Assembly (NCBI GenBank): GCA_945983015.1
Contig: CAMFSN010000003.1
Span: 1 to 35,622 of the forward strand
Direction: 5' to 3'
Source of the DNA: an uncultured Bacteroidales bacterium
Lineage (GTDB): Bacteria; Bacteroidota; Bacteroidia; Bacteroidales; UBA932
DNA: 35,622 nucleotides
Below the pieces are notes generated by a model. That model searched no databases. It was given only the letters and a program-made list of their open reading frames with translations, and was not told the origin of the DNA. Within the stretch, counting starts at the first letter, position 1. Each line of letters starts with the position of its first letter. A program made the position numbers and the translations under genes. Below are positions 3 to 13,705 of the stretch, in pieces.

Positions 3-1634
3 TCAGTAGTCTATGCCGAATTGGACCTGATTAAGAACTTGAAATTAAGGACTCAGGCCTCCTTTGATTTCACCCATACGGAAGGCTTCAGCCAATCCTT
101 CCCGAGCTATGCTCCAAATCAGGAAGAAGGCAGCGCCTCGAGAAGCAGCGCCACTTATCTGAATCTTCAGATGTCTAACACCTTGACTTATCTTCTGAAT
201 CTAGGCTCCGACCACGATTTCACCTTCCTTTTAGGTCAGGAATACGAAGATTATCACTCCGAGGGCTTCTCCCTGCAGGGTAAAGGCACGAGCAACGACA
301 AGCTCACCGACATAGCCTTCGCCACCAGAGTGACTTCCTGGGACAGCTGGGCCGATTCAGACTACTCCCGACTCTCCTTCTTTGGAAGGGCTGAATATAA
401 CTTCCAGAACCGTATCTATTCCGAGGCTTCCCTAAGAGCCGACGCCTCATCCCGCTTCGGAAAGAACAATCGTTGGGGCGTGTTCGGAGCACTGGGTCTG
501 ATGTGGGACCTTAGAAACGAAGATTTCTTCTTCCCTTACAGGGATTACTTTAGCACTGCCCAGATTTCCCTGAGCAGTGGCACCTCCGGCAACTCTTCCA
601 TCCCTAACTACGAACACCTGGCCCTTATCGGAGGTAGCGGGGACTATCTGGGAGATTCAGCCTTGAGCCCCGTACAGCCTGGAAATGAAAACCTTAGCTG
701 GGAGAACTGCTGGACCACAAACCTGGCTTTCCATCTGGGCATACTCAGCAGGATAAATGCCGATATCGAGCTTTATAACAAATACACCTCCGATATGCTG
801 ATGATGGTACCACTCTCCTATGCCCAGTCGAACGGTTTCGGCTACCGCTGGGACAATGTGGGAGCTATGGTTAACCGCGGTATCGAGCTTAACCTGAGCG
901 CTGACCTGCTCAGAAGCGGCAAGTTCGTATGGAATATAAATGCCAATGTCGGCTATAACCATAACCGTATCAAGGAACTTTACAACGGCGTTACAGAATA
1001 CGAGAATGCCAACACCAACACCAAACTGGTGGTAGGTCACCCTCTGGGTGAGTTCTACCTGAACCGCTATGCCGGAGTCAATCCGGCCAATGGTGATGCC
1101 CTTTGGTACGACAAGGACGGAAATCTCACAAATGAGCTCAGAGACGAGGATAAAGTTCTGATAGGAAAGAGTTTCTATGCTCCTTGGCAGGGAGGGTTCG
1201 GCAGCACCATAAGCTACGGGGCTCTGAGTCTAAGCGCCCAATTCAGCTGGGTGGCAGACAGGTGGATGATAAACAACGACCGCTATTTCGACGAGAGTAA
1301 CGGACGCTTCGCATCCTACAACCAGTCCAGACGACTGCTGGACAGGTGGAAGCAACCCGGGGACATCACTGATATTCCTCGTCACGGAGTTTACACCGAG
1401 TTCGACAGCCGTCTGCTCGAGGATGCCTCTTTCCTAAGACTTAAGAATCTGATGCTCAGCTATAATGTCGGCAAACTCGCCTTCATTAACAATCTGAGAA
1501 TCTATATTCAGGCCCAGAACCTGTTGACATTCACCAACTTCTCCGGACTTGATCCAGAAGGTGTAGCTAATATCTACGCTGCCCAGTATCCTATGTCAAG
1601 GCAGTTCACCTTCGGTCTGGACATTAATTTCTAG
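3..1634 (+). CDS. SusC/RagA-family TonB-linked outer membrane protein, C-terminal part (5' end off the window)
   Basis: The frame is open back to base 3 with no stop, so the listed TTG at 21 is not a real start. Beta-barrel-like alternating sequence typical of a SusC C-terminus, ending in ...RQFTFGLDINF; followed directly by a SusD gene. Confidence 0.93.
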   Translation, partial: SVVYAELDLIKNLKLRTQASFDFTHTEGFSQSFPSYAPNQEEGSASRSSATYLNLQMSNTLTYLLNLGSDHDFTFLLGQEYEDYHSEGFSLQGKGTSNDKLTDIAFATRVTSWDSWADSDYSRLSFFGRAEYNFQNRIYSEASLRADASSRFGKNNRWGVFGALGLMWDLRNEDFFFPYRDYFSTAQISLSSGTSGNSSIPNYEHLALIGGSGDYLGDSALSPVQPGNENLSWENCWTTNLAFHLGILSRINADIELYNKYTSDMLMMVPLSYAQSNGFGYRWDNVGAMVNRGIELNLSADLLRSGKFVWNINANVGYNHNRIKELYNGVTEYENANTNTKLVVGHPLGEFYLNRYAGVNPANGDALWYDKDGNLTNELRDEDKVLIGKSFYAPWQGGFGSTISYGALSLSAQFSWVADRWMINNDRYFDESNGRFASYNQSRRLLDRWKQPGDITDIPRHGVYTEFDSRLLEDASFLRLKNLMLSYNVGKLAFINNLRIYIQAQNLLTFTNFSGLDPEGVANIYAAQYPMSRQFTFGLDINF

Positions 1635-1640
1635 AAGAGT

Positions 1641-3134
1641 ATGAAGAGTCTAAAAAATATTATTCTGACATCTATTGCAGCTCTGGGTCTGGTTTCCTGT
1701 CTGGACAAGACTCCAGCGGACAATCTACTTCTGGGCGAAGGAATGAGTTCGCTTAACGGAGCTGACCAGATATGTAACGGAATTTACAAGAAACTAATGA
1801 GCGGAGCCCTATACAGTGGCCACCTCACTCTTTGCCCTGACATTCAAGCAGACCTGGTCTATGCGGTTCAGGGTAATTCCAACACCTACGGAAACTTATG
1901 GAGATGGAAAATCCTCTCCACGAACAGCGAGATAGGCAGCATCTATGCCGGACTCTATTCGGTAATAGGCTCCTGCAACTTCTTCCTGGACGGAGTGGAT
2001 GAATTGAAAGCGAGCCTGACCGACGACGAGCAGATTCAGTATCTGGACCACCTTCACGGGGAGGTTTTGTGCGCGAGGGCATTGGCATACAGCGAACTGG
2101 CCAAATGCTTCTGCAAGGCATACAGCGAGCAGACAAAGGAGGAGCTGGGGCTTGTACTCGCGGATAGCTATTATAAGGAAGCCCCGAAGAAAAGAGCCAC
2201 ACTTGCCCAGACTTATGAATTTATAATCAAGGACTTGCAGAAGGCAAGCGAACTCTTTGACCCTGATTCGGACCAGTCTAACGCCCCGTATTTCTCTTAT
2301 GGAGCAGTTCAGGCGCTCTGGGCGAGAGTATGCTTGAATATGGAGGATTGGGACGGGGCCATCGAGCACGCCAGCTATCTGATAGACAGCGGGGTATATA
2401 AATTGGCAGACGCCAATTCCATCTACACCGGAACGAAATCCTACCTGGATTATATGTGGACTAACGATGCCGCCTTCGAGATTATCTTCAAGATAGGCTA
2501 CACCTCCACCTCCTATGGCTCGCCTATAGGACAGGTCTTCCTGAATTTCAACCGTGATTTCACCTATTATTATCCGGATTATGTGCCGGCAAGCTGGGTG
2601 CTGAACCTCTACAATAGCTCTGACCAAAGGTACGATGCCTATTTCACTGAGGCTCAGACCGGATATAGCCACGGACTTACTTGGCCGCTGCTCACCAAAT
2701 ATATGGGCAACGAGGGTTTTATGGCCAATTATATTTACCACGTCTGTATGCCTAAGCCTCTGCGTCTGGCCGAACAGTACCTGATCCGTAGCGAGGCTTT
2801 CTGCCGGAAGGGGAATATCTCCAAGGCCAATTCCGACCTGAATGCCCTTCGCTCCAAACGCTACTCAAATGGCGGAAATGTCAGTATGAACGAACAGAAT
2901 TGGCTTGAAACCATAAGCGAGGAAAGGGTGAGGGAACTCTATATGGAAGGTTTCCGCCTGAACGACCTGAAGAGATGGCACAAGGGATTCGAGAGAAGCA
3001 GTCAGACAGGTTGTCAAAGCGAGGGCAGCAGCCTTAAGGTGGCAGCTGATGATCCGCTCTTTGTATGGCCTATACCGAGAAACGAACTGGAGGCCCCTGG
3101 ATCCGAGATTGAAGGAAATGAAAGCAACAAATAG
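1641..3134 (+). CDS. SusD/RagB-family nutrient-binding outer membrane lipoprotein
   Basis: Lipoprotein signal (...LGLVSCLDK), SusD-like TPR region, and C-terminal ISEERVRELYMEGFRLNDLKRW motif typical of SusD/RagB. 6 nt after SusC. Confidence 0.95.
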   Translation: MKSLKNIILTSIAALGLVSCLDKTPADNLLLGEGMSSLNGADQICNGIYKKLMSGALYSGHLTLCPDIQADLVYAVQGNSNTYGNLWRWKILSTNSEIGSIYAGLYSVIGSCNFFLDGVDELKASLTDDEQIQYLDHLHGEVLCARALAYSELAKCFCKAYSEQTKEELGLVLADSYYKEAPKKRATLAQTYEFIIKDLQKASELFDPDSDQSNAPYFSYGAVQALWARVCLNMEDWDGAIEHASYLIDSGVYKLADANSIYTGTKSYLDYMWTNDAAFEIIFKIGYTSTSYGSPIGQVFLNFNRDFTYYYPDYVPASWVLNLYNSSDQRYDAYFTEAQTGYSHGLTWPLLTKYMGNEGFMANYIYHVCMPKPLRLAEQYLIRSEAFCRKGNISKANSDLNALRSKRYSNGGNVSMNEQNWLETISEERVRELYMEGFRLNDLKRWHKGFERSSQTGCQSEGSSLKVAADDPLFVWPIPRNELEAPGSEIEGNESNK

Positions 3135-3135
3135 A

Positions 3136-4035
3136 ATGAAAAAGTTTAAATACATATTAGTCATTGTACTTGGAGCACTGCTCTGTTCCTGCCAGGAGCA
3201 CTATATAGAATACTCTGATGCCGAATACATTATGTTCGCCGATACCCTGAAAGCCTATGCCGTAGGGCAAGAGGACGGATATTTCAGCGTTCCGGTGGTC
3301 TCGACTGTCAGTTGTAACTATGACAGGGTGATAGCCGTGGAGGTTATAGATACCGAGAGCAGCGCCATAGAAGGGCTGCATTACTCTCTGGAATCAAACA
3401 CCTTGACTATTCCGGCCGGTTCTAACAAGACAGAGCTCAGAGTAAAGGGCCATTACGAGAATCTGGAAAGCGGGAATGATTTGATTATCTGCCTGAATCT
3501 GATAATGAATGAAAAGCTCGCCATGGATCTCTATGGAACCAAGACCAAGGTGCAGCTCGTAAAGACCTGTCCTTTCGACAGGAACAATTTCTGCGGATGG
3601 TGCGTACTCTCTTCCACTTTCCTTCAGAACTTCAACCCTTACGGTTCTTATCAGAGACTTATCAAAACCAAGCCTCACCCGACTAAGGAAGACTGTATCA
3701 TCTGCGAGAATTGGATGAACGATGGCTATGACATTGTGCTCCGATTCGACACTTCCGACCCTCTGAACCCTGTGGTGAGTATGGATGGAGAACAGATCAT
3801 CAGCGACGAGGGCTCTTTCTTCGGAATGGCTCACGGAGATGACAGAATCAGGGCCATAAACAGCTATCTATACGACTCTTACTACTATAACTGTGGCAGT
3901 TACCTCTATATATGGACTGCTATGTACGTGAACGACCTGAACACTTCTATCGGCACCGTAGGCCATTTCTACAACATTATGGAATGGGTTAGCGATGAAG
4001 AGGCCAGACGCCTTCAGGAAGAAAATGGAATGTAA
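3136..4035 (+). CDS. DUF4843-like lipoprotein
   Basis: ATG at 3136 gives MKKFKYILVIVLGALLCSCQEH, a lipoprotein signal, 1 nt after the SusD stop. The longer ORF start at 3049 lies inside susD. EYIMFADT...FSVPVV pattern and SusCD-adjacent position fit DUF4843. Confidence 0.75.
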   Translation: MKKFKYILVIVLGALLCSCQEHYIEYSDAEYIMFADTLKAYAVGQEDGYFSVPVVSTVSCNYDRVIAVEVIDTESSAIEGLHYSLESNTLTIPAGSNKTELRVKGHYENLESGNDLIICLNLIMNEKLAMDLYGTKTKVQLVKTCPFDRNNFCGWCVLSSTFLQNFNPYGSYQRLIKTKPHPTKEDCIICENWMNDGYDIVLRFDTSDPLNPVVSMDGEQIISDEGSFFGMAHGDDRIRAINSYLYDSYYYNCGSYLYIWTAMYVNDLNTSIGTVGHFYNIMEWVSDEEARRLQEENGM

Positions 4036-4054
4036 ATGTTAAATAAATAAAACG

Positions 4055-6367
4055 ATGAAAAATTATTCTAAATTAAGCATCGCTTGCGCTCTAACAGCAC
4101 TGTTCGCAAGCTCTTGTATTCAACCGGAAAACCCTGATGTGGTGGTTGAACCCGTATTCCCTGAGGAAGTTGATATTCGCACAGTAAAGGCAGGAGAATC
4201 TGTGGAACTCAGCCTTGCTGCGAATCTTGACTGGACCCTCAGCATTGAAGGCGAGGGTGCTGGTAACTTCTTCTGGATCGATGACGACGGTCTCAAAGAG
4301 AGCAGCATCTCCGGAGAAGCCGGCGAGATCAAAGCTACCATCGTATTCTCCGAGACTGAAGAATTGGACAACAACCGTGTATGTACCGTCAACCTCACCA
4401 TGGCCGAGCAGACCAAGAAGGTAGCTGAATACACCAGACTTGCCCTCGAAAGAACTTTCGAAATATATGTAGGCCAGGCTGGCGAATATGATTTTGCCAG
4501 GGAAAACGGAGCCTATGTTTATGAGAAAGCAGAGAGCGCAGAGCTCATCAGCTTTGCCGGAAGCGTAAGGTACTCTATCCCTGTTAAGGTTATCAGCAAC
4601 TATGCATGGAACCTTTCCCTGCCAGAGTGGCTTAGCGCAGGTGAAGTGAATTCCGGAGAGGCAGGTGCCACCGAGTTCATCCTGAGCGCCATTCTGAGCT
4701 CAGAAAACGAGAACGGAGCTAAAGACAATGTCAAATTCCTGGACAGCGTTAACACTTCAGTAGAAGAAAGCCTAGAGATCAAGCTGCCCGCATTTGTGGA
4801 CAGACTGGAGATCGAGACCTCTACCAGTTTCATCTTCAACGCAGCCGGTGAGCAGCAGATGCCTACCGGAGGATTCAGCGAAGTACCTGGAATAGCTTAT
4901 GTCCGCGGAGTGGAAGGTTTCGTAGTTAAAGCCCTGGAATTCAATGGTGAGAGGCACGAGACCAGCTATGCTGACTGGGTAGAGTCAGAGATCAAGTTCA
5001 ATTCCGGCGATTCATACCTCAAGAACGCCACTGTAGAGATTACTCCTAAAGCTAACGATGGAGATGCCAGAGTAGCCGACATTCTCATCCTGCCTAAGAG
5101 CCTCTCAGCGACTCCAGTAGAAGATCTTTGCGATCCTAACAGCTGCGAGTTCCTCGAGAAATTCCAGCCTTATGTCCTCTGCCGTCTGGAGCAGGAAGCC
5201 GCCCCTAAGACTGATCCTGTAGGTGGAGATTATATCACCCTTTCAGATAATGAAGATGACACTTACAAGGCTGAACTTGTAAAACTCGAAAAGGGTTGGA
5301 TGCACTCTATGTTCTACTGCGAAGAGGCCTACACCCTTACCTATACCGACGAATATTCCCAGGCTACCCTAATATTCAGCGAGGCCTTCGATCACTATGA
5401 GTTCTGCAACTTCTGGGGCAGCACTGTACCAGAGGACGGATTCTGGCTGGAACTGAATCCTTTCTCAAATAACAGCAAGAGCACTCTCTATATGAACCCT
5501 CAGCTCTACAAGCCATTAGAGGGCGAAGAGCCTGAGTCCTTCGTAGTGTTCTACGATGCCGAAGGGAAGGGCAAGGCCGTGATCCAGTGCCTTTACAGAG
5601 AAGGTCAGGAGATAGGAGGAGGAGACGATGAGACTGATGGAATTATCTCCATCGTAAACGGAACAGGTAATGTACAACACCTCAGCGAATCCGATGATAT
5701 CTATCAGGGAGTCTACTCCATTACAGGTGTCTCCGATATATATGCGGTTACCGTATCGTCTTTCGACACCGTGCTCAAATCCGAGACCAGCTACTGGAAC
5801 GTTCAATTACTTGGGTTTGACGGCAATGAGCTCAACGACGGGACCTTCTATCTGGAGCCTTTCAATGAGCAGCAGTTCACCGTCTCTAAGGGCGAGAGCG
5901 TTCAAGAGGTCACTTCCTGCGTCATCACACTCCGGGGTAAAAGCGCTCCTTTTGCCGCCATCTATTTCACCTGGGATCCTGAAGCTAAGGACGAGAATGC
6001 TACCAATACTCCATTCAGTTTTCTTACTCCTGAATATGTAACGGGTGCTCAGCTCCAGAAAGGAGCTTCAGACGAAGTCCTGCAGATGCTTAAAGGTGAA
6101 TTCGGCTCAATTCTGGACGTGGAGAAGGTTTACACCCTGACCTATACGAGCGCATTCCCTCAAATGCCTACAGTTAAGTGCCCTTCCTATAATCCTGGTC
6201 CAGCTTATGGGAACGGGGAAGGATCCTACGACTATTGGCTTCAGGGAGAATACGAAGACGGAACACTGTGGGTTAGTATGAGCGAAGTCGGGCTGGTCGA
6301 TTACTTCTGGTTCCACGATGCCCAATGGTCCGAGCACTATTTTCTCGTTTGCACAAGAACACAATAA
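4055..6367 (+). CDS. Large multi-domain lipoprotein with BACON/Ig-like N-terminal regions, unknown function
   Basis: Lipoprotein signal (...LFASSCIQPE). N-terminal segments (AGESVELSLAANLDWTLSI; RYSIPVKVISNYAWNLSLPEWL) resemble BACON-like Ig folds. Acidic, repeated YTLTYT segments in the C-terminal half. Confidence 0.7.
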   Translation: MKNYSKLSIACALTALFASSCIQPENPDVVVEPVFPEEVDIRTVKAGESVELSLAANLDWTLSIEGEGAGNFFWIDDDGLKESSISGEAGEIKATIVFSETEELDNNRVCTVNLTMAEQTKKVAEYTRLALERTFEIYVGQAGEYDFARENGAYVYEKAESAELISFAGSVRYSIPVKVISNYAWNLSLPEWLSAGEVNSGEAGATEFILSAILSSENENGAKDNVKFLDSVNTSVEESLEIKLPAFVDRLEIETSTSFIFNAAGEQQMPTGGFSEVPGIAYVRGVEGFVVKALEFNGERHETSYADWVESEIKFNSGDSYLKNATVEITPKANDGDARVADILILPKSLSATPVEDLCDPNSCEFLEKFQPYVLCRLEQEAAPKTDPVGGDYITLSDNEDDTYKAELVKLEKGWMHSMFYCEEAYTLTYTDEYSQATLIFSEAFDHYEFCNFWGSTVPEDGFWLELNPFSNNSKSTLYMNPQLYKPLEGEEPESFVVFYDAEGKGKAVIQCLYREGQEIGGGDDETDGIISIVNGTGNVQHLSESDDIYQGVYSITGVSDIYAVTVSSFDTVLKSETSYWNVQLLGFDGNELNDGTFYLEPFNEQQFTVSKGESVQEVTSCVITLRGKSAPFAAIYFTWDPEAKDENATNTPFSFLTPEYVTGAQLQKGASDEVLQMLKGEFGSILDVEKVYTLTYTSAFPQMPTVKCPSYNPGPAYGNGEGSYDYWLQGEYEDGTLWVSMSEVGLVDYFWFHDAQWSEHYFLVCTRTQ

Positions 6368-6373
6368 CATAAA

Positions 6374-8977
6374 ATGACTTTTAAAAATCAATTCTTCTTT
6401 AGACTGGCAGCTATCCTGCTGACGATTCTTCCGGCTTTCTCCTGTATTCAGGAGGAAGCGGAAGACCTGCGGGAGAAGGATTACGGATATGTACAGTTCA
6501 AGCTCTATAAGGAAGCCTCCTATGAGAGCAAAGCCATAGTGAGTGAACTGGACTATCTGAAAGATGCCAGCAAAATCCTTTTAATGCTGGAGTACTCTAA
6601 CAAACAGATTTCCCAGACCCTTGTGCTTCGAGCTCAGGATCAAAGCAGCACGGAGTGGGGTTTGAGAAGTGAGAAACTCCAACTGGTAAAAGGCAATTAT
6701 AAAATCAAAGCCTTTACGCTTTTCGACGCCTTGGACGAAGAACTCTACAATGGAGGAAGTGCAGGAGAATTTGAAGTGCTTGCAGGAGGTCTGACCAGCC
6801 ACGACATTACTGTCAAGGTTAGTCCTCGAGGACAGGTCAAATTCACCCTCGAAAAAGTCTTTACCAAGGCCTCTGTCAGGGAATACACCTTCGATGAAAT
6901 CGCCGAAGTGGACCTGGAGCTCAAGAACAGCCAGACCGGAGTCAAAACCCTGATAGAGCATCTGAAAGGCAATTTCGACATCCATTTCAAAGAGGAAGGC
7001 TCCTACTACAGGACCTCTTCCGTAGTCTGCGACAGCATAGTCACAGTCAAAGGTGGCACTTATCTCATTAACTCCTACACCGTAAGAGATAAGGAAGGCA
7101 AACTGCTGGAGTATAATGCAGACCTGAACGCGGAAGTCTTCGAGGTAAAGGACAACTGTCTGACAGAAGTGAAGGTGCCAGTGAAACTGAACGAGTCTGC
7201 CGCTTATATGCAGGACTATCTGGCACTAAGAAAAATTTGGGAATCTCTGGACGGTCCGAATTGGTATTATTTCGGAGAGGATTGGCCTAGAGGAGCGAAC
7301 TGGAATTTCGAGAAGGATCCGGACCTATGGGGCGACCAGCCAGGAGTGCAGCTTCACAGCAACGGCAGAGTGGCCCTGATCAATATCAGCGATTTCGGCT
7401 TCAGAGGACATCTCTCCCCAGCCATAGGAGATCTTAGCGAGCTGGTGGAACTATATCTGGGTTCTCACAACGACATCAACCTCTTCGAATTCGACCCTAG
7501 CATACAGCCAGGGATGAACGAGACAAACAGAATGGAAAGGCATAAGGAATATCTGAAAATGATACACCCTGCCACTCCATTTACCGAGCCTATCGCCGTG
7601 GCTCTCAGGGAAAACGGGATAAGCCTGCCTCAGACAGAACTTTACGAACGCTACAGCGAGGAAGAGCTGATAGACAAAGAAGATGGGCACAGCCTTATCC
7701 AGCCTATGGACGTAGTGCACCGCAAACTCTGCAACGGGCTCAAGTCCCTACCGGAAGAGATTGGCAATCTGAAAAAACTGGAAACCCTCTACATAGCCAA
7801 CGGCGAACTCGCCGAACTGCCGCAGAGATTCTCGGAGCTCGAATCCCTGACGGATCTGGAGCTCTATAACTGCACAAAGATGAGCAAGGCTCCGGAAGCC
7901 CTCAAAGAACTTCCTAACCTGATCTCCGTAAATCTGGGGAACAACTCCCAGATGAGCAGTGAAGAGATAGAAAAAGCTCTGGAATACCTCTGCACCGGAG
8001 CCTCCCAGACAAAGTTGCAGATACTTTACTTTAATTTGAACAACATCAGCCGCATAGACGGCGCGCAGATAAGGAATCTGAAAAAGCTGGGTCTGTTCGA
8101 TTTGGCATACAATCAGATAAGTGAAATCACTGAGGCCTTCGGACAGGAGATTTCCGTAGTGCAGCTTTATCTGGACCATAACAAGCTCAGCAGTCTGCCG
8201 GTGGACGAAAAGGGTCTGTTTATGAAAGTGGATGATGTGGAGAGTTTCACCGCCGCCTTCAACCTCTTTAGCGAACTGCCTGACATCTTCACCACCCAGA
8301 CTCCATACTTTATGGGTTCCATAGATTTCTCATTCAATCACATCAGCGGAGTCCAGAACAGCGGAAGCTCCTACAAGGGACTTAAGGCCGAGACCCTCAA
8401 CCTGGGAAACAATATGGAATTGACAAGTCTTCCTACGGCCTTTGCCGAAAGCAACTCCTCCATACAGAACTTCTCCTTCAGAGGCTGTGCGATAAAGGAG
8501 ATTCCTTCGGAATGCTTTATCTATGAGAATGCCAAGTATATCAAGTCTATCGATTTGTCCTACAATCGTTTGAATGACCTGCCAAGCAGTTTGAACGGAG
8601 TTAACCTGCCATACCTTTACGGCATAGACCTGTCTTATAACAGCTTCAAGGTATTCCCATTCGAGCCGCTGGACAGCGCCTACCTTACCGTATTCGCCAT
8701 ACGAGGACAGAGAGAAAACGGAGAAAGATGTCTGGAACAATGGCCAAACGGAATTTACAACCACAAGGGTCTAAGAGGATTCTACATAGGCTCAAATAAT
8801 CTGGGAAAAATAGATGACACCATCTCCACCCTCTGTTACATCCTGGAAATCAGCGACAATCCTAACATCGTCTTCGATGCCTCAGATATCTGCACGGCCT
8901 ACGCCAGAGGTCAGTTCCACCTCATCTATGACGAGACCCAGGACATCAGAAATTGCCAGTATATCCCTACAGTTTAG
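6374..8977 (+). CDS. DUF4458-like leucine-rich-repeat surface lipoprotein
   Basis: Lipoprotein signal (LPAFSCIQEEAED) with acidic residues after Cys; YVQFKLYK N-terminal module; many LRR units (e.g. IGNLKKLETLYIANGELAELPQRFSELESLTDLELYNC; IDLSYNRLNDLPSSLNGVNLPYLYGIDLSYNSFKVFP). Confidence 0.82.
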   Translation: MTFKNQFFFRLAAILLTILPAFSCIQEEAEDLREKDYGYVQFKLYKEASYESKAIVSELDYLKDASKILLMLEYSNKQISQTLVLRAQDQSSTEWGLRSEKLQLVKGNYKIKAFTLFDALDEELYNGGSAGEFEVLAGGLTSHDITVKVSPRGQVKFTLEKVFTKASVREYTFDEIAEVDLELKNSQTGVKTLIEHLKGNFDIHFKEEGSYYRTSSVVCDSIVTVKGGTYLINSYTVRDKEGKLLEYNADLNAEVFEVKDNCLTEVKVPVKLNESAAYMQDYLALRKIWESLDGPNWYYFGEDWPRGANWNFEKDPDLWGDQPGVQLHSNGRVALINISDFGFRGHLSPAIGDLSELVELYLGSHNDINLFEFDPSIQPGMNETNRMERHKEYLKMIHPATPFTEPIAVALRENGISLPQTELYERYSEEELIDKEDGHSLIQPMDVVHRKLCNGLKSLPEEIGNLKKLETLYIANGELAELPQRFSELESLTDLELYNCTKMSKAPEALKELPNLISVNLGNNSQMSSEEIEKALEYLCTGASQTKLQILYFNLNNISRIDGAQIRNLKKLGLFDLAYNQISEITEAFGQEISVVQLYLDHNKLSSLPVDEKGLFMKVDDVESFTAAFNLFSELPDIFTTQTPYFMGSIDFSFNHISGVQNSGSSYKGLKAETLNLGNNMELTSLPTAFAESNSSIQNFSFRGCAIKEIPSECFIYENAKYIKSIDLSYNRLNDLPSSLNGVNLPYLYGIDLSYNSFKVFPFEPLDSAYLTVFAIRGQRENGERCLEQWPNGIYNHKGLRGFYIGSNNLGKIDDTISTLCYILEISDNPNIVFDASDICTAYARGQFHLIYDETQDIRNCQYIPTV

Positions 8978-8982
8978 AGTAT

Positions 8983-10656
8983 ATGATGAATAATAGAAGA
9001 TATATTACAAGCCTCGTCCTTCTTTCTGCCCTGTTATCTTCCTGCGTGGAGGAAAAGCAGGTGGAATTTGAGATTTCGGGACAGGAAATCAGTCTGGGAC
9101 CGGAAGGTGGTACCAGAGCTCTGAGACTCTCCTCCGACTCTGAATGGATAGCTAAGACCCAGGAGCCCTGGATTACCGTATCCCCTGCCAATGGAGTAGG
9201 CAGCGTAGAGTGCAAGATAATAGTTGATTCTGCGCTTACCGTTAATCCTCGGGAAGGTCTGGTTAGACTGGAAAGACTCTCTGACGGAAAAAGACAGGAA
9301 ATCAAGGTCAAACAGGAGGGCTTCAACTACGAGATCAGCTGCGAAAAACAAGAACTGGAGATAGAGAGCTATGCTGATTTCGGAAAGCGCAGTTTCACTC
9401 TGGAACTTACTGCCAACACCCCTTTCGAGGTGAAGATAATAGACAAGAACGATCCTCTCCAAACCAAAGCCAAGTGGCTTAGATGCTCGGTTCCGGAGCT
9501 CAATTTAGACAGAGGGGCAAGACCTCGCAAAGTCAAATTGAACTTCGAATGGGATATCAACATCTATCAGTATGACAGGCAGCTCGAAGTCGAGTTCCTC
9601 GCCCTGGACCAGAGCATAAGCCTTAGCAGACAAGACAAGCTGGAAATCAGACAGAAGTCTGCAGAGCCTATAGAGATAGGAATAAAGGGAGATTCCCTCG
9701 CTGTTTTAGCCATACATAATGCTCTGGGCTGTATGGGACAGATCAACAGCTCCGAAAGGATGGCCAATTGGGACAATGTGACCGTGTGGAAATCCGGTCC
9801 CAACAAGGGCAGAATCCGCTCGGCCTCCTTCGTACTGTTTAACATCAAGGAAGGCATTCCTTTCCAGGTACAATACCTGACTGCTGCCGAGACACTTACA
9901 TTCTTCGGTAACACGAACACCTTCCTCTACAGTTTCGACCCGGGCGAGTTCATCTGCAAACTTCCTCAACTCAAAAACTTGACTATCAGCGCATACGGTC
10001 TTACCTCCCTGCCTGAAGATTTTTATAAACTGGAGAATCTCGAGTATCTGGACCTGAGCGGAAACAATTTCCAGGCTTTCCCTGAGGTACTCTGCAAGGA
10101 GAACTTCCCTAAGCTCAGGACTTTGCTGCTGAATGCCAATATCCGATACAGCGATTACGACCTGTCCAATTTCAACAAGGATAACATAGGCGGTTTCGTG
10201 GAAGAATGTCCTAAGGACGAGAACGGCAAGAGGCACTTCCCTGTCAAAATTCTTAAATGGGATACTCTAGACACCCTTAGGCTGAGCGTAAATCACTTCC
10301 AGGGCAGTATTCCTTCCCTCGAAGACGATCCCGACTTCCCTAAGTGGACGGAGGAGGAAGTCAACGCCTGCGACACCCTGCCGAGCATCCTGATAGGTCT
10401 GCCTAAAGTGTTAGCTAACACTAACTTCTTCTCCATCAACCTGAACCGTCTAAGCGGAGAACTCCCAAACTGGCTGCTTTACCACCCGAAGTTGGATCTC
10501 TGGATTCCGGACGCTCTGATTTTCCCTCAGTCTGATGGAAGGGACCAAGACGGCAATTCCACCGGATTCAGCAACGAACCGGCGAACCTGGATTACTATT
10601 ATAAGGAATATGTAAACAAGAAGTTTAACCCTAACAATATGACAGACAATGAATAA
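8983..10656 (+). CDS. BACON-domain plus leucine-rich-repeat lipoprotein
   Basis: ATG at 8983 gives MMNNRRYITSLVLLSALLSSCVEEKQ. BACON-like unit (ISLGPEGGTRALRLSSDSEWIAKTQEPWITVSPANGVG...), then LRRs (LPQLKNLTISAYGLTSLPEDFYKLENLEYLDLSGNNFQAFPE). Confidence 0.82.
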   Translation: MMNNRRYITSLVLLSALLSSCVEEKQVEFEISGQEISLGPEGGTRALRLSSDSEWIAKTQEPWITVSPANGVGSVECKIIVDSALTVNPREGLVRLERLSDGKRQEIKVKQEGFNYEISCEKQELEIESYADFGKRSFTLELTANTPFEVKIIDKNDPLQTKAKWLRCSVPELNLDRGARPRKVKLNFEWDINIYQYDRQLEVEFLALDQSISLSRQDKLEIRQKSAEPIEIGIKGDSLAVLAIHNALGCMGQINSSERMANWDNVTVWKSGPNKGRIRSASFVLFNIKEGIPFQVQYLTAAETLTFFGNTNTFLYSFDPGEFICKLPQLKNLTISAYGLTSLPEDFYKLENLEYLDLSGNNFQAFPEVLCKENFPKLRTLLLNANIRYSDYDLSNFNKDNIGGFVEECPKDENGKRHFPVKILKWDTLDTLRLSVNHFQGSIPSLEDDPDFPKWTEEEVNACDTLPSILIGLPKVLANTNFFSINLNRLSGELPNWLLYHPKLDLWIPDALIFPQSDGRDQDGNSTGFSNEPANLDYYYKEYVNKKFNPNNMTDNE

Positions 10657-12607
10657 GAAACTCTATATCATATTGGGTGCAAGCCTGCTGATATGCGGAT
10701 GCCAGAACGCAGAACTCATCCTGCCTCAGGAGCAAACTGCTCCAGGAAGGGATGACTCCGTGGTTCAGGGTGAACTTCTGGTAAAATTCAGCCCTCAAGT
10801 CGCCGGCATCATAGAACAGCAAGGCTTGTGCAAAAGTTCCTCCATCTCAGTGAATGAAGTGCTTCAGACACTTCAAGGCTGCACTGTAGAAAGGGTATTT
10901 CCCGTGGATAAAAGAACTGAGGAAACTGCAGTAAAGGAAGGCCTGAACCTCTGGTACGTAGTCCGCTTTGATGAAGGAGTGGAACAGGACAAGCTGGGAA
11001 GCAGACTCAACAAACTGGGAGAAGTCAGCCGCGTGGAATACAACCGCAGCCTCAAAAAGGCCTACACCGGCCGCTCCATACCTTTTCAGCAGACCAAGGC
11101 AGGAGGCGAATCCTATTTCAAGTATCAGTGGAACCTGCATAACACGGGCGATCTGAAAGAGCGGAAATTCATAGCCGGAGCAGATGTCAATGTTCTGAAA
11201 GCCTGGGATTTAAGCTGCGGAGATCCGGATATCATAGTAGCCGTTCTGGACGAAGGCGTGGATTATACCCATCCTGAACTCGCCCCTAATATGTGGACTA
11301 ACGAAGACGAGATCTTCCGCTCCCACCAGGACAATGACGGCAACGGCTATGTCGGGGACTATTACGGTTATAATTTCACCAGAGGCACCGGAGTCATATC
11401 TACTGACGACGTAAACGACAGCGGACACGGCACACACGTGGCCGGAGTCATAGCAGCTCTGAATGACGGAGAAGGACTCGAAAGCATAGCAGGAGGCAAA
11501 AATGGACAGAAAGGCGTACGCATTATGTCCTGCCAGATTTTCAGCGGGAACTATGCCGGCACCGTGCTCGACGAAGTCAGGGCCATCAAATACGCCGCTG
11601 ACAACGGAGCGGTAATCCTGCAGTGCAGCTGGGGCTATACTTCCGGTGCCGCAAACCCATACGACTGGATGCCACAGTACGGGGATGACGACAGTTGGAA
11701 GAAGGATAATATGCTGGAGGCCAAGGCTCTTGACTACTTTATCCACAATGCCGGCTCCCCTGACGGAGTAATCGACGGAGGCATAGCCATCTTCGCCGCC
11801 GGCAACGAAAGCGCTCCTGCTGCAGGATACCCTGGAGCCTATCCGGACTTCGTATCCGTAGCCGCAACTGCCGGAGATTACAGCCCGGCCATCTATACGA
11901 ACTTCGGCCCCGGAACCACCATCAGTGCCCCGGGCGGAGATCAGGACTACTACTATGACTGGGGCGAAGGCTCGAACAAGGGTGCCATAGGCTGCATCCT
12001 CTCCACGATGCCACGCACTGTCAGCCCGAGCGGCTACGGCTATATGGAAGGCACCTCAATGGCCTGTCCGCACGTAAGTGGAGTAGTGGCCCTCGGACTA
12101 TCCTATGCCGCCCAGCTGCGCAGGCACTTCAAGGCTGAAGAAGTCATAGAATTACTCTATTCTTCGGCTCAGGAGATAGAGAGTCACTGGAATACGGATG
12201 AACTCAAATACTATTACAAATGGGTGGCAGACCTGGGCGAAAACCATTACAACTCCATAGACCTGAATGCCTACAAGGGTAAGATGGGTGCCGGTCAGGC
12301 CGATGCCTACGCCTTCCTCAAAGCCATAGAGGGAGCAGGAGTGGAGATGAGTTTTCCAAATGTCCTGCTGACTCTGGGCCAAGAGGCCCGATACTCCCCT
12401 GCCAGGTATTTCCAAAACGGAGAAAATCTCAGCTACAGCCTCGAGATTGAACAAAAGGGCATAGCAGATGCCAAGTTAGAAGGCTCGCAGCTGTTATTCT
12501 ACGGACTCGCTCAGGGTCAGACCAAGGCCAAAATCAGTGCAGGGGACGGCCAGAGCTTTGATTTTGTGATTACTGTCAGAGAAAACAGCGGACAAGGCTG
12601 GTTATAA
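10649..12607 (+). CDS. S8 family subtilisin-like serine protease, predicted lipoprotein
   Basis: Catalytic motifs VAVLDEGVDYTHP (Asp201), DSGHGTHVAGVIA (His260), AAGNESAPAAGYPG (oxyanion Asn region), MEGTSMACPHVSG (Ser470). Lipobox LLICGCQN. Confidence 0.95.
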   Translation: MNKKLYIILGASLLICGCQNAELILPQEQTAPGRDDSVVQGELLVKFSPQVAGIIEQQGLCKSSSISVNEVLQTLQGCTVERVFPVDKRTEETAVKEGLNLWYVVRFDEGVEQDKLGSRLNKLGEVSRVEYNRSLKKAYTGRSIPFQQTKAGGESYFKYQWNLHNTGDLKERKFIAGADVNVLKAWDLSCGDPDIIVAVLDEGVDYTHPELAPNMWTNEDEIFRSHQDNDGNGYVGDYYGYNFTRGTGVISTDDVNDSGHGTHVAGVIAALNDGEGLESIAGGKNGQKGVRIMSCQIFSGNYAGTVLDEVRAIKYAADNGAVILQCSWGYTSGAANPYDWMPQYGDDDSWKKDNMLEAKALDYFIHNAGSPDGVIDGGIAIFAAGNESAPAAGYPGAYPDFVSVAATAGDYSPAIYTNFGPGTTISAPGGDQDYYYDWGEGSNKGAIGCILSTMPRTVSPSGYGYMEGTSMACPHVSGVVALGLSYAAQLRRHFKAEEVIELLYSSAQEIESHWNTDELKYYYKWVADLGENHYNSIDLNAYKGKMGAGQADAYAFLKAIEGAGVEMSFPNVLLTLGQEARYSPARYFQNGENLSYSLEIEQKGIADAKLEGSQLLFYGLAQGQTKAKISAGDGQSFDFVITVRENSGQGWL

Positions 12608-13266
12608 TGAATAAAGGCTTTTTGAGCATATTCCTAGGATTGTCTCTGTGCCTGAGTGCAGGCGCACAGAGTCTCTATTTTCCTGTTAGCGTTCTGGAAG
12701 GAGGCAGTATCAAGGAGAGCGATCCCATACAGAGTTTCAGCTACGAGTTCGAGAACATAAGCGGGAAGCCACTGAGGATCAGTTCCCTTAGGACCAACTG
12801 CTCCTGCTCGTCAGCCACTTGCAGTGCAGACTTGATTCAGCCCGGAGAAAAGGCTAGCATCATCCTGAAATACTCACCAAAGGGCAGAAGCGGAAGTTTC
12901 GACAGCAAAGTATATGTTTATACCGACCAGTCTGAGGAAGTAGAAAGCATCCTAAGCCTTAGGATAAGAGTGGTGGACGATTCCCCTTATCCCTATAGAA
13001 TGGGGCCTTACGCCCTGCAGACTAAGGAGATAGTCTTCCAGAAAGGAAAAAGGGCGAAGTCCAGGATAGGCTATAGGAAACTCTCCGACCAGGCCTCGGA
13101 GCTGAAATTGAGACAGGACTTCCTCCCGCCTTTCCTGAAGGCTAAACTGGGCAAGGAGAGCATTCTGGTGGAATATAAGCCGGACAAGGCTCACTCCAGC
13201 GGGGAGTACCCTCTGTATCTGGAATGTAAAGAGAAACAGACTAAAGTGATAATAAAGGTAAAATAA
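12607..13266 (+). CDS. DUF1573-like secreted protein
   Basis: Signal peptide (FLSIFLGLSLCLSAGAQ). FEFENISGKPLRI...TNCSCSSATCS...IQPGEKASIILKYSPKGRSGSFDSKVYVYTD matches the DUF1573 pattern. 1-nt overlap (TAATG) with the protease. Confidence 0.85.
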   Translation: MNKGFLSIFLGLSLCLSAGAQSLYFPVSVLEGGSIKESDPIQSFSYEFENISGKPLRISSLRTNCSCSSATCSADLIQPGEKASIILKYSPKGRSGSFDSKVYVYTDQSEEVESILSLRIRVVDDSPYPYRMGPYALQTKEIVFQKGKRAKSRIGYRKLSDQASELKLRQDFLPPFLKAKLGKESILVEYKPDKAHSSGEYPLYLECKEKQTKVIIKVK

Positions 13267-13267
13267 T

Positions 13268-13705
13268 ATGAAATTCGTGAAATTCCTTTTGGGCCTGTGC
13301 CTTGCCACAGCGCTGCTATCCTGCAGCAAAGAGAACTCAAAAGACGGAAGTGAACCGCTTCTGGAAGTGAACTATAACAATATCAGCGGAAAGTGGACTC
13401 TGGAGCAAGTTAACGGAAAGACTCTGCTCGATGGAACTTTTCTGGAATTGAGCCTGGAGAGAAGCGAGCACAGTTTCGAGATAGTCACTAATCTGGACAG
13501 CTTCCAGGATGCTCCCCACACGATGAGCGGAACTTATGCCCTGAGCATCAGTGCAGAGCAGGGTGCAGTAATAGAAGGCAAATACGACCACGACAGCGGA
13601 TTCTGGAGCCACGACTATGTAATAGAACGCCTCAGTGCAAGCTCTATGCTCTGGATAGCACTGGACAATCCGGAATTGACACAATTCTTCACGAGAATCA
13701 AGTGA
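13268..13705 (+). CDS. Small lipocalin-like lipoprotein
   Basis: Lipobox (TALLSCSKE), then ISGKWTLEQVNGK...LELSLERSEHSFE...MSGTYALS typical of a small beta-barrel/lipocalin-like domain. Last gene of the operon. Confidence 0.65.
   Translation: MKFVKFLLGLCLATALLSCSKENSKDGSEPLLEVNYNNISGKWTLEQVNGKTLLDGTFLELSLERSEHSFEIVTNLDSFQDAPHTMSGTYALSISAEQGAVIEGKYDHDSGFWSHDYVIERLSASSMLWIALDNPELTQFFTRIK

Follow-up and report, generated by a model that had tools for sequence, protein, structure and literature searches.

SusCD operons, peptide import by RagAB, S8 proteases and potempins are each already known. The BT2261-2264 system joins a SusCD pair to two accessory lipoproteins, and polysaccharide utilisation loci, or glycan utilisomes, are well established and gather a SusCD core, its accessory lipoproteins at the surface and an enzyme into a single operon. 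RagAB of Porphyromonas gingivalis imports peptides produced by surface proteases, and how it connects with binding proteins and peptidases has been described as an open question (PMC11817032). Potempins, which are paired with the KLIKK proteases of Tannerella forsythia, are small lipoproteins reported to inhibit the adjacently encoded protease (PMC7296668). We analyzed a window of 35,622 nucleotides (nt) from an uncultured Bacteroidales bacterium (CAMFSN010000003.1), which makes up an entire contig of a metagenome-assembled genome (1.42 Mb, 81% complete), and in which nine plus-strand open reading frames (ORFs; genes 1 to 9, table 1) cover positions 3-13705. These encode SusC, SusD, a DUF4984/DUF4843-type protein, an Ig-like lipoprotein, two leucine-rich repeat (LRR) lipoproteins, an S8 subtilase, a DUF1573 protein and a small barrel protein. 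With a SusCD core, surface lipoproteins as accessories and an enzyme encoded together, the arrangement resembles a polysaccharide utilisation locus; however, the operon's enzyme is a protease and no glycoside hydrolase (GH) or lyase accompanies it. We proposed, with moderate confidence, that the operon encodes a surface-exposed proteolytic utilisome, which would combine capture of a protein, cleavage by S8, peptide import of the RagAB type and a barrel guard. No description of this combination in one conserved operon was found in the searched literature.

The nine genes form one conserved operon. Successive genes are separated by gaps of 6, 1, 19, 6 and ~8 nt, overlaps of 8 and 1 nt and a gap of 1 nt (computed with start positions of 3136 for gene 3 and 8986 for gene 6, where ORF calling had placed the starts further upstream, at 3049 and 8953), which verified the tight, co-directional packing given in a preliminary description made from the sequence alone. 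Homologous loci were collected from the GTDB species collection with a profile query that combined the LRR protein of the window with four homologues from the same genus; of 186 related stretches, the best 80 were examined, and every ORF of these loci was scored with profiles for the nine genes. The LRR alignment query was productive, and a single S8 sequence used as query of genome contigs gave no match. All nine genes were present in each of the 61 complete loci, so that S8 stays with the SusCD pair throughout, and the gene order was identical in 58, with the DUF1573 and barrel genes swapped in the other 3. Thus, the gene order search across Bacteroidales suggested in the preliminary description found the same arrangement recurring. 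Across loci, median intergenic distances were 1.5-23 nt, and the median protein identities among complete loci were ~25-69%; the conservation of gene order is therefore far beyond chance. The Bacteroidetes promoter element TAnnTTTG was found in the 100 nt preceding SusC in 38 of 65 loci, whereas shuffling gave an expectation of 5.2, and no other gene had it upstream in more than 5 loci; the pairwise divergence of each gene tracked that of SusC (r 0.71-0.88). Taken together, the co-occurrence, order, short spacing, promoter element before SusC and parallel divergence indicated that the nine genes constitute a single transcription unit that is passed on as a whole and is acquired or lost en bloc. 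The operon's LRR gene occurred in 16 of the 300 genomes from the window's family and in 10 of the 121 from another family. The loci are recorded under uncultured Bacteroidales, Rikenellaceae, Alistipes and Tidjanibacter, with many from the guts of ruminants and other animals.

By its genes, the operon belongs to the SusCD-type uptake systems, with a TIGR04056 SusC directly followed by a SusD lipoprotein gene. Among solved SusC structures, the window SusC scored 320 bits against RagA, with the next at 156 and 107 bits, and the profile of its homologues scored 779 bits against RagA compared with 536 for 8aa4, 453 for 5t3r and 182 for BT_2264. The SusCs of the nine-gene operons gave 426 bits for RagA and 231 for the glycan importer 8aa4, whereas 14 other SusCs from the same loci, examined as a control, showed no group preference (median 216 for RagA and 199 for 8aa4). 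By these scores, the operon SusC is specifically RagA-like. Of the two systems named in the preliminary description, RagAB thus held, and BT2261-2264, which has a SusCD pair with accessory lipoproteins in common with the operon, proved distant and was ruled out as the nearest relative (182 vs. 779 bits). The lid-type SusD and the lack of adjoining sugar enzymes are further likenesses to RagAB; the difference is that here the protease, the capture lipoproteins and the proposed guard share the operon. Domain searches detected no glycoside hydrolase, lyase or other sugar-active family in the nine genes, and the upstream neighbours of the homologues were not conserved, in agreement with the absence of glycoside hydrolases noted earlier. 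Because the SusC is of the RagA-like family and RagAB imports peptides, a protease is co-encoded and sugar enzymes are absent, peptides would be the best-supported cargo of the SusCD pair. A further SusC/SusD pair at L045:1-3667 was also strongly RagA-like (432 vs. 174 bits) and divergent from the S8-linked operon.

We then addressed the protease and the barrel protein encoded by gene 9. The triad residues D201, H260 and S470 and the oxyanion residue N386 were identical in 71 of 71 S8 homologues; thus, the catalytic residues are intact at the sequence level. The gene 9 protein (145 aa) is predicted to form an 8-stranded barrel (pLDDT 84); it had no domain match and no PDB sequence match itself, and its homologues match Pfam Lipocalin_4. 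Barrel homologues, linked across loci by profile-profile comparison (99% probability), immediately follow 9 of the 11 related S8 genes at other loci, where the pair stands behind SusC-SusD and an unassigned protein or behind GH53-GH2 (L043). In a second set of S8 loci, mostly from genomes absent from the earlier sampling, a barrel gene followed 17 of 21 short S8 genes (9 in nine-gene operons and 8 elsewhere) and none of 13 long ones, although many long loci had only ~300 nt downstream, in which an adjacent gene would be only partly visible. This recurrent pairing led us to propose a potempin-type guard before the result of the fold search, in which Foldseek placed T. forsythia potempin E (8ehd) at rank 3 for the gene 9 model (TMt 0.63, E 3.8e-3). 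Most gene 9 homologues bear a lipobox, and they accompany the S8 subfamily in loci that are unrelated to one another; the S8 protein also matches T. forsythia mirolase (8ehe). As in the potempin/KLIKK pairs, a small barrel lipoprotein is encoded beside a secreted protease; however, the operon S8 is a lipoprotein without the KLIKK end, and its barrel gene lies downstream, after DUF1573, whereas potempin genes lie upstream of the protease (PMC7296668). Thus, we proposed that gene 9 may encode a cognate inhibitor or guard of the S8 protease, and the recurrent pairing and the potempin E match favour a potempin-like protease partner over a binding protein for this gene, labelled "lipocalin-like" earlier. 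That gene 9 is instead an ordinary ligand-binding lipocalin, which would present a hydrophobic ligand or peptide to SusCD, is a serious possibility, which we place somewhat below an even chance: it accords with the Lipocalin_4 matches and the nearly equal fold scores of ordinary lipocalins, but in unrelated loci the gene 9 homologues come after a single S8 subfamily, in some cases with no SusCD or LRR gene next to them, and S8, DUF1573 and the barrel are jointly missing from related operons (L078-L080).

The latter operons, from two other families (L078:6786-19858, L079:198-13511 and L080:7943-19898), retain a core of SusC, SusD, the DUF4843-type protein, the fourth gene, LRR and BACON-LRR. 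Their SusC is RagA-like to a similar degree, and they carry a third LRR lipoprotein in place of the S8, DUF1573 and barrel genes. Therefore, a capture-import core and a protease cassette are distinguishable from gene content, with the protease as an apparently added module. Such operons suit another explanation, that S8 has no nutritional role: it would mature or release surface proteins, whether the operon's own lipoproteins or others, or act against the proteins of competitors, while SusCD would import something else. A guard would likewise suit any surface protease; however, every one of the 61 complete loci retains S8 at a fixed place, the SusC belongs to the peptide-importing type, and we regard this explanation as quite improbable. 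S8 genes were also observed beside glycan genes: at L043:4587-10806, S8 and barrel genes lie directly behind GH53 and GH2-type genes in a galactan-type locus; the same GH2 precedes the S8-barrel pair in L040; and at L046:9829-15517, an S8 gene follows GH2-type genes, with close homologues of both L043 enzymes. The S8 cassette thus seems, from gene neighbourhoods, to have been added to glycan loci as well. Glycoprotein binding has often been proposed for BACON domains, and together with the GH53 and GH2 genes before the pair in L043 and L040 this fits a system for mucin-type or plant glycoproteins, in which S8 would trim the backbone, SusCD would import glycopeptides and enzymes encoded elsewhere would remove the sugars. 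We consider this reading unlikely, since no glycan enzyme lies within, or consistently beside, the nine-gene operon and the SusC is nearest to a peptide importer. A second type of S8-linked SusCD operon (L041:6214-15675, L042:6428-16507 and L045:6239-16172) consists of SusC, SusD, a protein of ~800-835 aa and S8, with a barrel gene in L042 and L045; the ~800-835-aa proteins are 30-37% identical, and the L042 copy has no Pfam match.

In the proteolytic utilisome that we favour, the LRR, BACON and Ig-like lipoproteins would capture a protein, which the lipid-anchored S8 subtilase would cut at the cell surface, and the RagAB-type SusC/SusD "pedal bin", probably in complex with these proteins, would carry the peptides over the outer membrane with TonB energy; the potempin-like barrel lipoprotein would restrain S8, sparing neighbouring surface proteins. 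The preliminary description had likewise proposed capture, cleavage and import of a protein or glycoprotein. For a protein substrate this is supported indirectly by the RagA-like SusC, the invariant S8 residues, the retention of S8 with SusCD in the 61 complete loci and the absence of an operon glycoside hydrolase; the added-module character of the protease (L078-L080) qualifies it. Two refuting conditions named there, sugar-degrading enzymes in the missing upstream part and a protease not conserved with SusCD, did not refute it in the loci examined. Several observations weigh against our proposal. Core operons without the protease exist (L078-L080); the proposed mechanism gives DUF1573 no role; the likeness of SusD is not RagB-specific (3kez 126 bits, 3mcx 116 and RagB third with 115); and the potempin E match is weak (E 3.8e-3), with true lipocalins scoring nearly as well. 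A more far-reaching version, to which we give only tentative credence, is a self-contained protein utilisome in which the surface subtilase, the potempin-like guard and the LRR proteins for capture are physically carried by a RagAB-type SusCD, and in which S8 and guard form a portable cassette that has been added to several different SusCD and glycan loci.

Table 1. Genes of the operon at the start of the window
Gene	Product	Position	Strand	Matches and remarks
1	SusC, C-terminal 543 aa, RagA-like	3..1634	+	TIGR04056, 346 bits
2	SusD lipoprotein (lid)	1641..3134	+	SusD-like_3 and SusD_RagB; PDB 3kez, 3mcx, RagB
3	DUF4984/DUF4843-type lipoprotein	3136..4035	+	DUF4984, 135 bits; third position conserved
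4	770-aa lipoprotein, tandem Ig-like domains	4055..6367	+	AlphaFold pLDDT 75
5	DUF4458 (two copies)-LRR_10-LRR lipoprotein	6374..8977	+	Pfam; structure 4ecn
6	BACON-like and LRR lipoprotein	8986..10656	+	LRR_4/LRR_8 above cut-off
7	S8 subtilase lipoprotein with Peptidase_S8_N prodomain	10649..12607	+	Peptidase_S8, 130 bits; S8_N, 73 bits
8	DUF1573 protein	12607..13266	+	DUF1573, 62 bits; leader ends AGA|QS
9	Small lipocalin-like barrel lipoprotein, proposed S8 guard/inhibitor	13268..13705	+	8-stranded barrel model

The SusC gene is cut on its 5' side by the contig end, because the window is the entire contig, and a leftward extension is therefore impossible; the genome has 16 plug domains, other contigs included, and none belongs to an N-terminal fragment that would fit. 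Full-length SusC homologues (980 aa) carry a carboxypeptidase-regulatory domain and a plug, without an STN domain. For genes 2-7 and gene 9, the majority of homologues bear a lipobox with acidic residues after the cysteine, in accordance with the lipoprotein signals reported earlier, and these proteins are probably surface-located; DUF1573 is not a lipoprotein, as its leader shows a signal-peptidase-I / Q-rule pattern, matched in its simple form by 40 of 69 homologues, and the protein is probably periplasmic. Domain assignments were refined in two cases. The DUF4843 match of gene 3 exists but falls below the family cut-off, and DUF4984 is the better match; likewise, the LRR of gene 6 is above cut-off, but the BACON matches of genes 4 and 6 score 14.7 and 21.0 against a cut-off of 25 bits. 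The AlphaFold model of gene 4 is a string of beta sandwiches, for which domain searches assigned no family and the fold search returned only generic tandem-Ig matches; together with DUF1573, gene 4 diverges fastest (median pairwise identity 25%). At L126:948-3632 and L143:2830-5532, the DUF4458-LRR gene is broken into two reading frames by a frameshift or an assembly error.

Upstream neighbours varied by clade and included DUF4906, DUF4493-DUF6359, GH2, M24 and others. A tenth, upstream operon gene was ruled out because these genes are clade-dependent and the promoter element separates them from SusC. In close relatives (L055:455-4614), SusC is preceded at a distance of 50-250 nt by genes for a DUF4493-DUF6359 lipoprotein and a DUF4906 protein, which are possibly parts of a surface appendage. 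Downstream, fabD begins 54 nt past gene 9 and is followed by a pyruvate:ferredoxin oxidoreductase gene (names read from the sequence); a scan around the gene 9 end detected no sigma-70 promoter or terminator. A further 23 loci were partial and all reached a contig end except L145 (1-17610), in which genes 5-9 are present with other genes in place of genes 1-4 and a different SusC-SusD pair after them.

A counterpart appears to exist in Bacteroides thetaiotaomicron. The gene 5 protein aligned nearly full-length with the solved structure 4ecn (668 bits), which is presumably BT_0210. In a published table (PMC10434189), BT0207-08 are SusD and DUF4984, and BT0211-13 are a BACON protein, an S8 peptidase and DUF1573, which agree in kind and order with genes 2-3 and 6-8. 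Thus, the BT0206-BT0214 region appears to carry a copy of the operon, with five genes matched by published tags and BT0206, BT0209 and the last gene assumed from the numbering; the nine genes are presumably annotated singly in this species. Iron regulation of this copy was dismissed from the listed significance values of 0.08-0.57 (PMC10434189). A BT_0212 mutant still cleaved the single protein assayed (PMC6282197), and the searched literature gave no account of DUF4458 or of a SusC identity for BT0206.

The operon genetically joins a putative peptide importer, binding proteins and a protease, which bears on the open question concerning RagAB (PMC11817032). As a copy is apparently present in the tractable B. 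thetaiotaomicron, the peptide-utilisome question would be directly testable, and the gene 9 family provides candidate guard proteins for bacterial surface subtilases.

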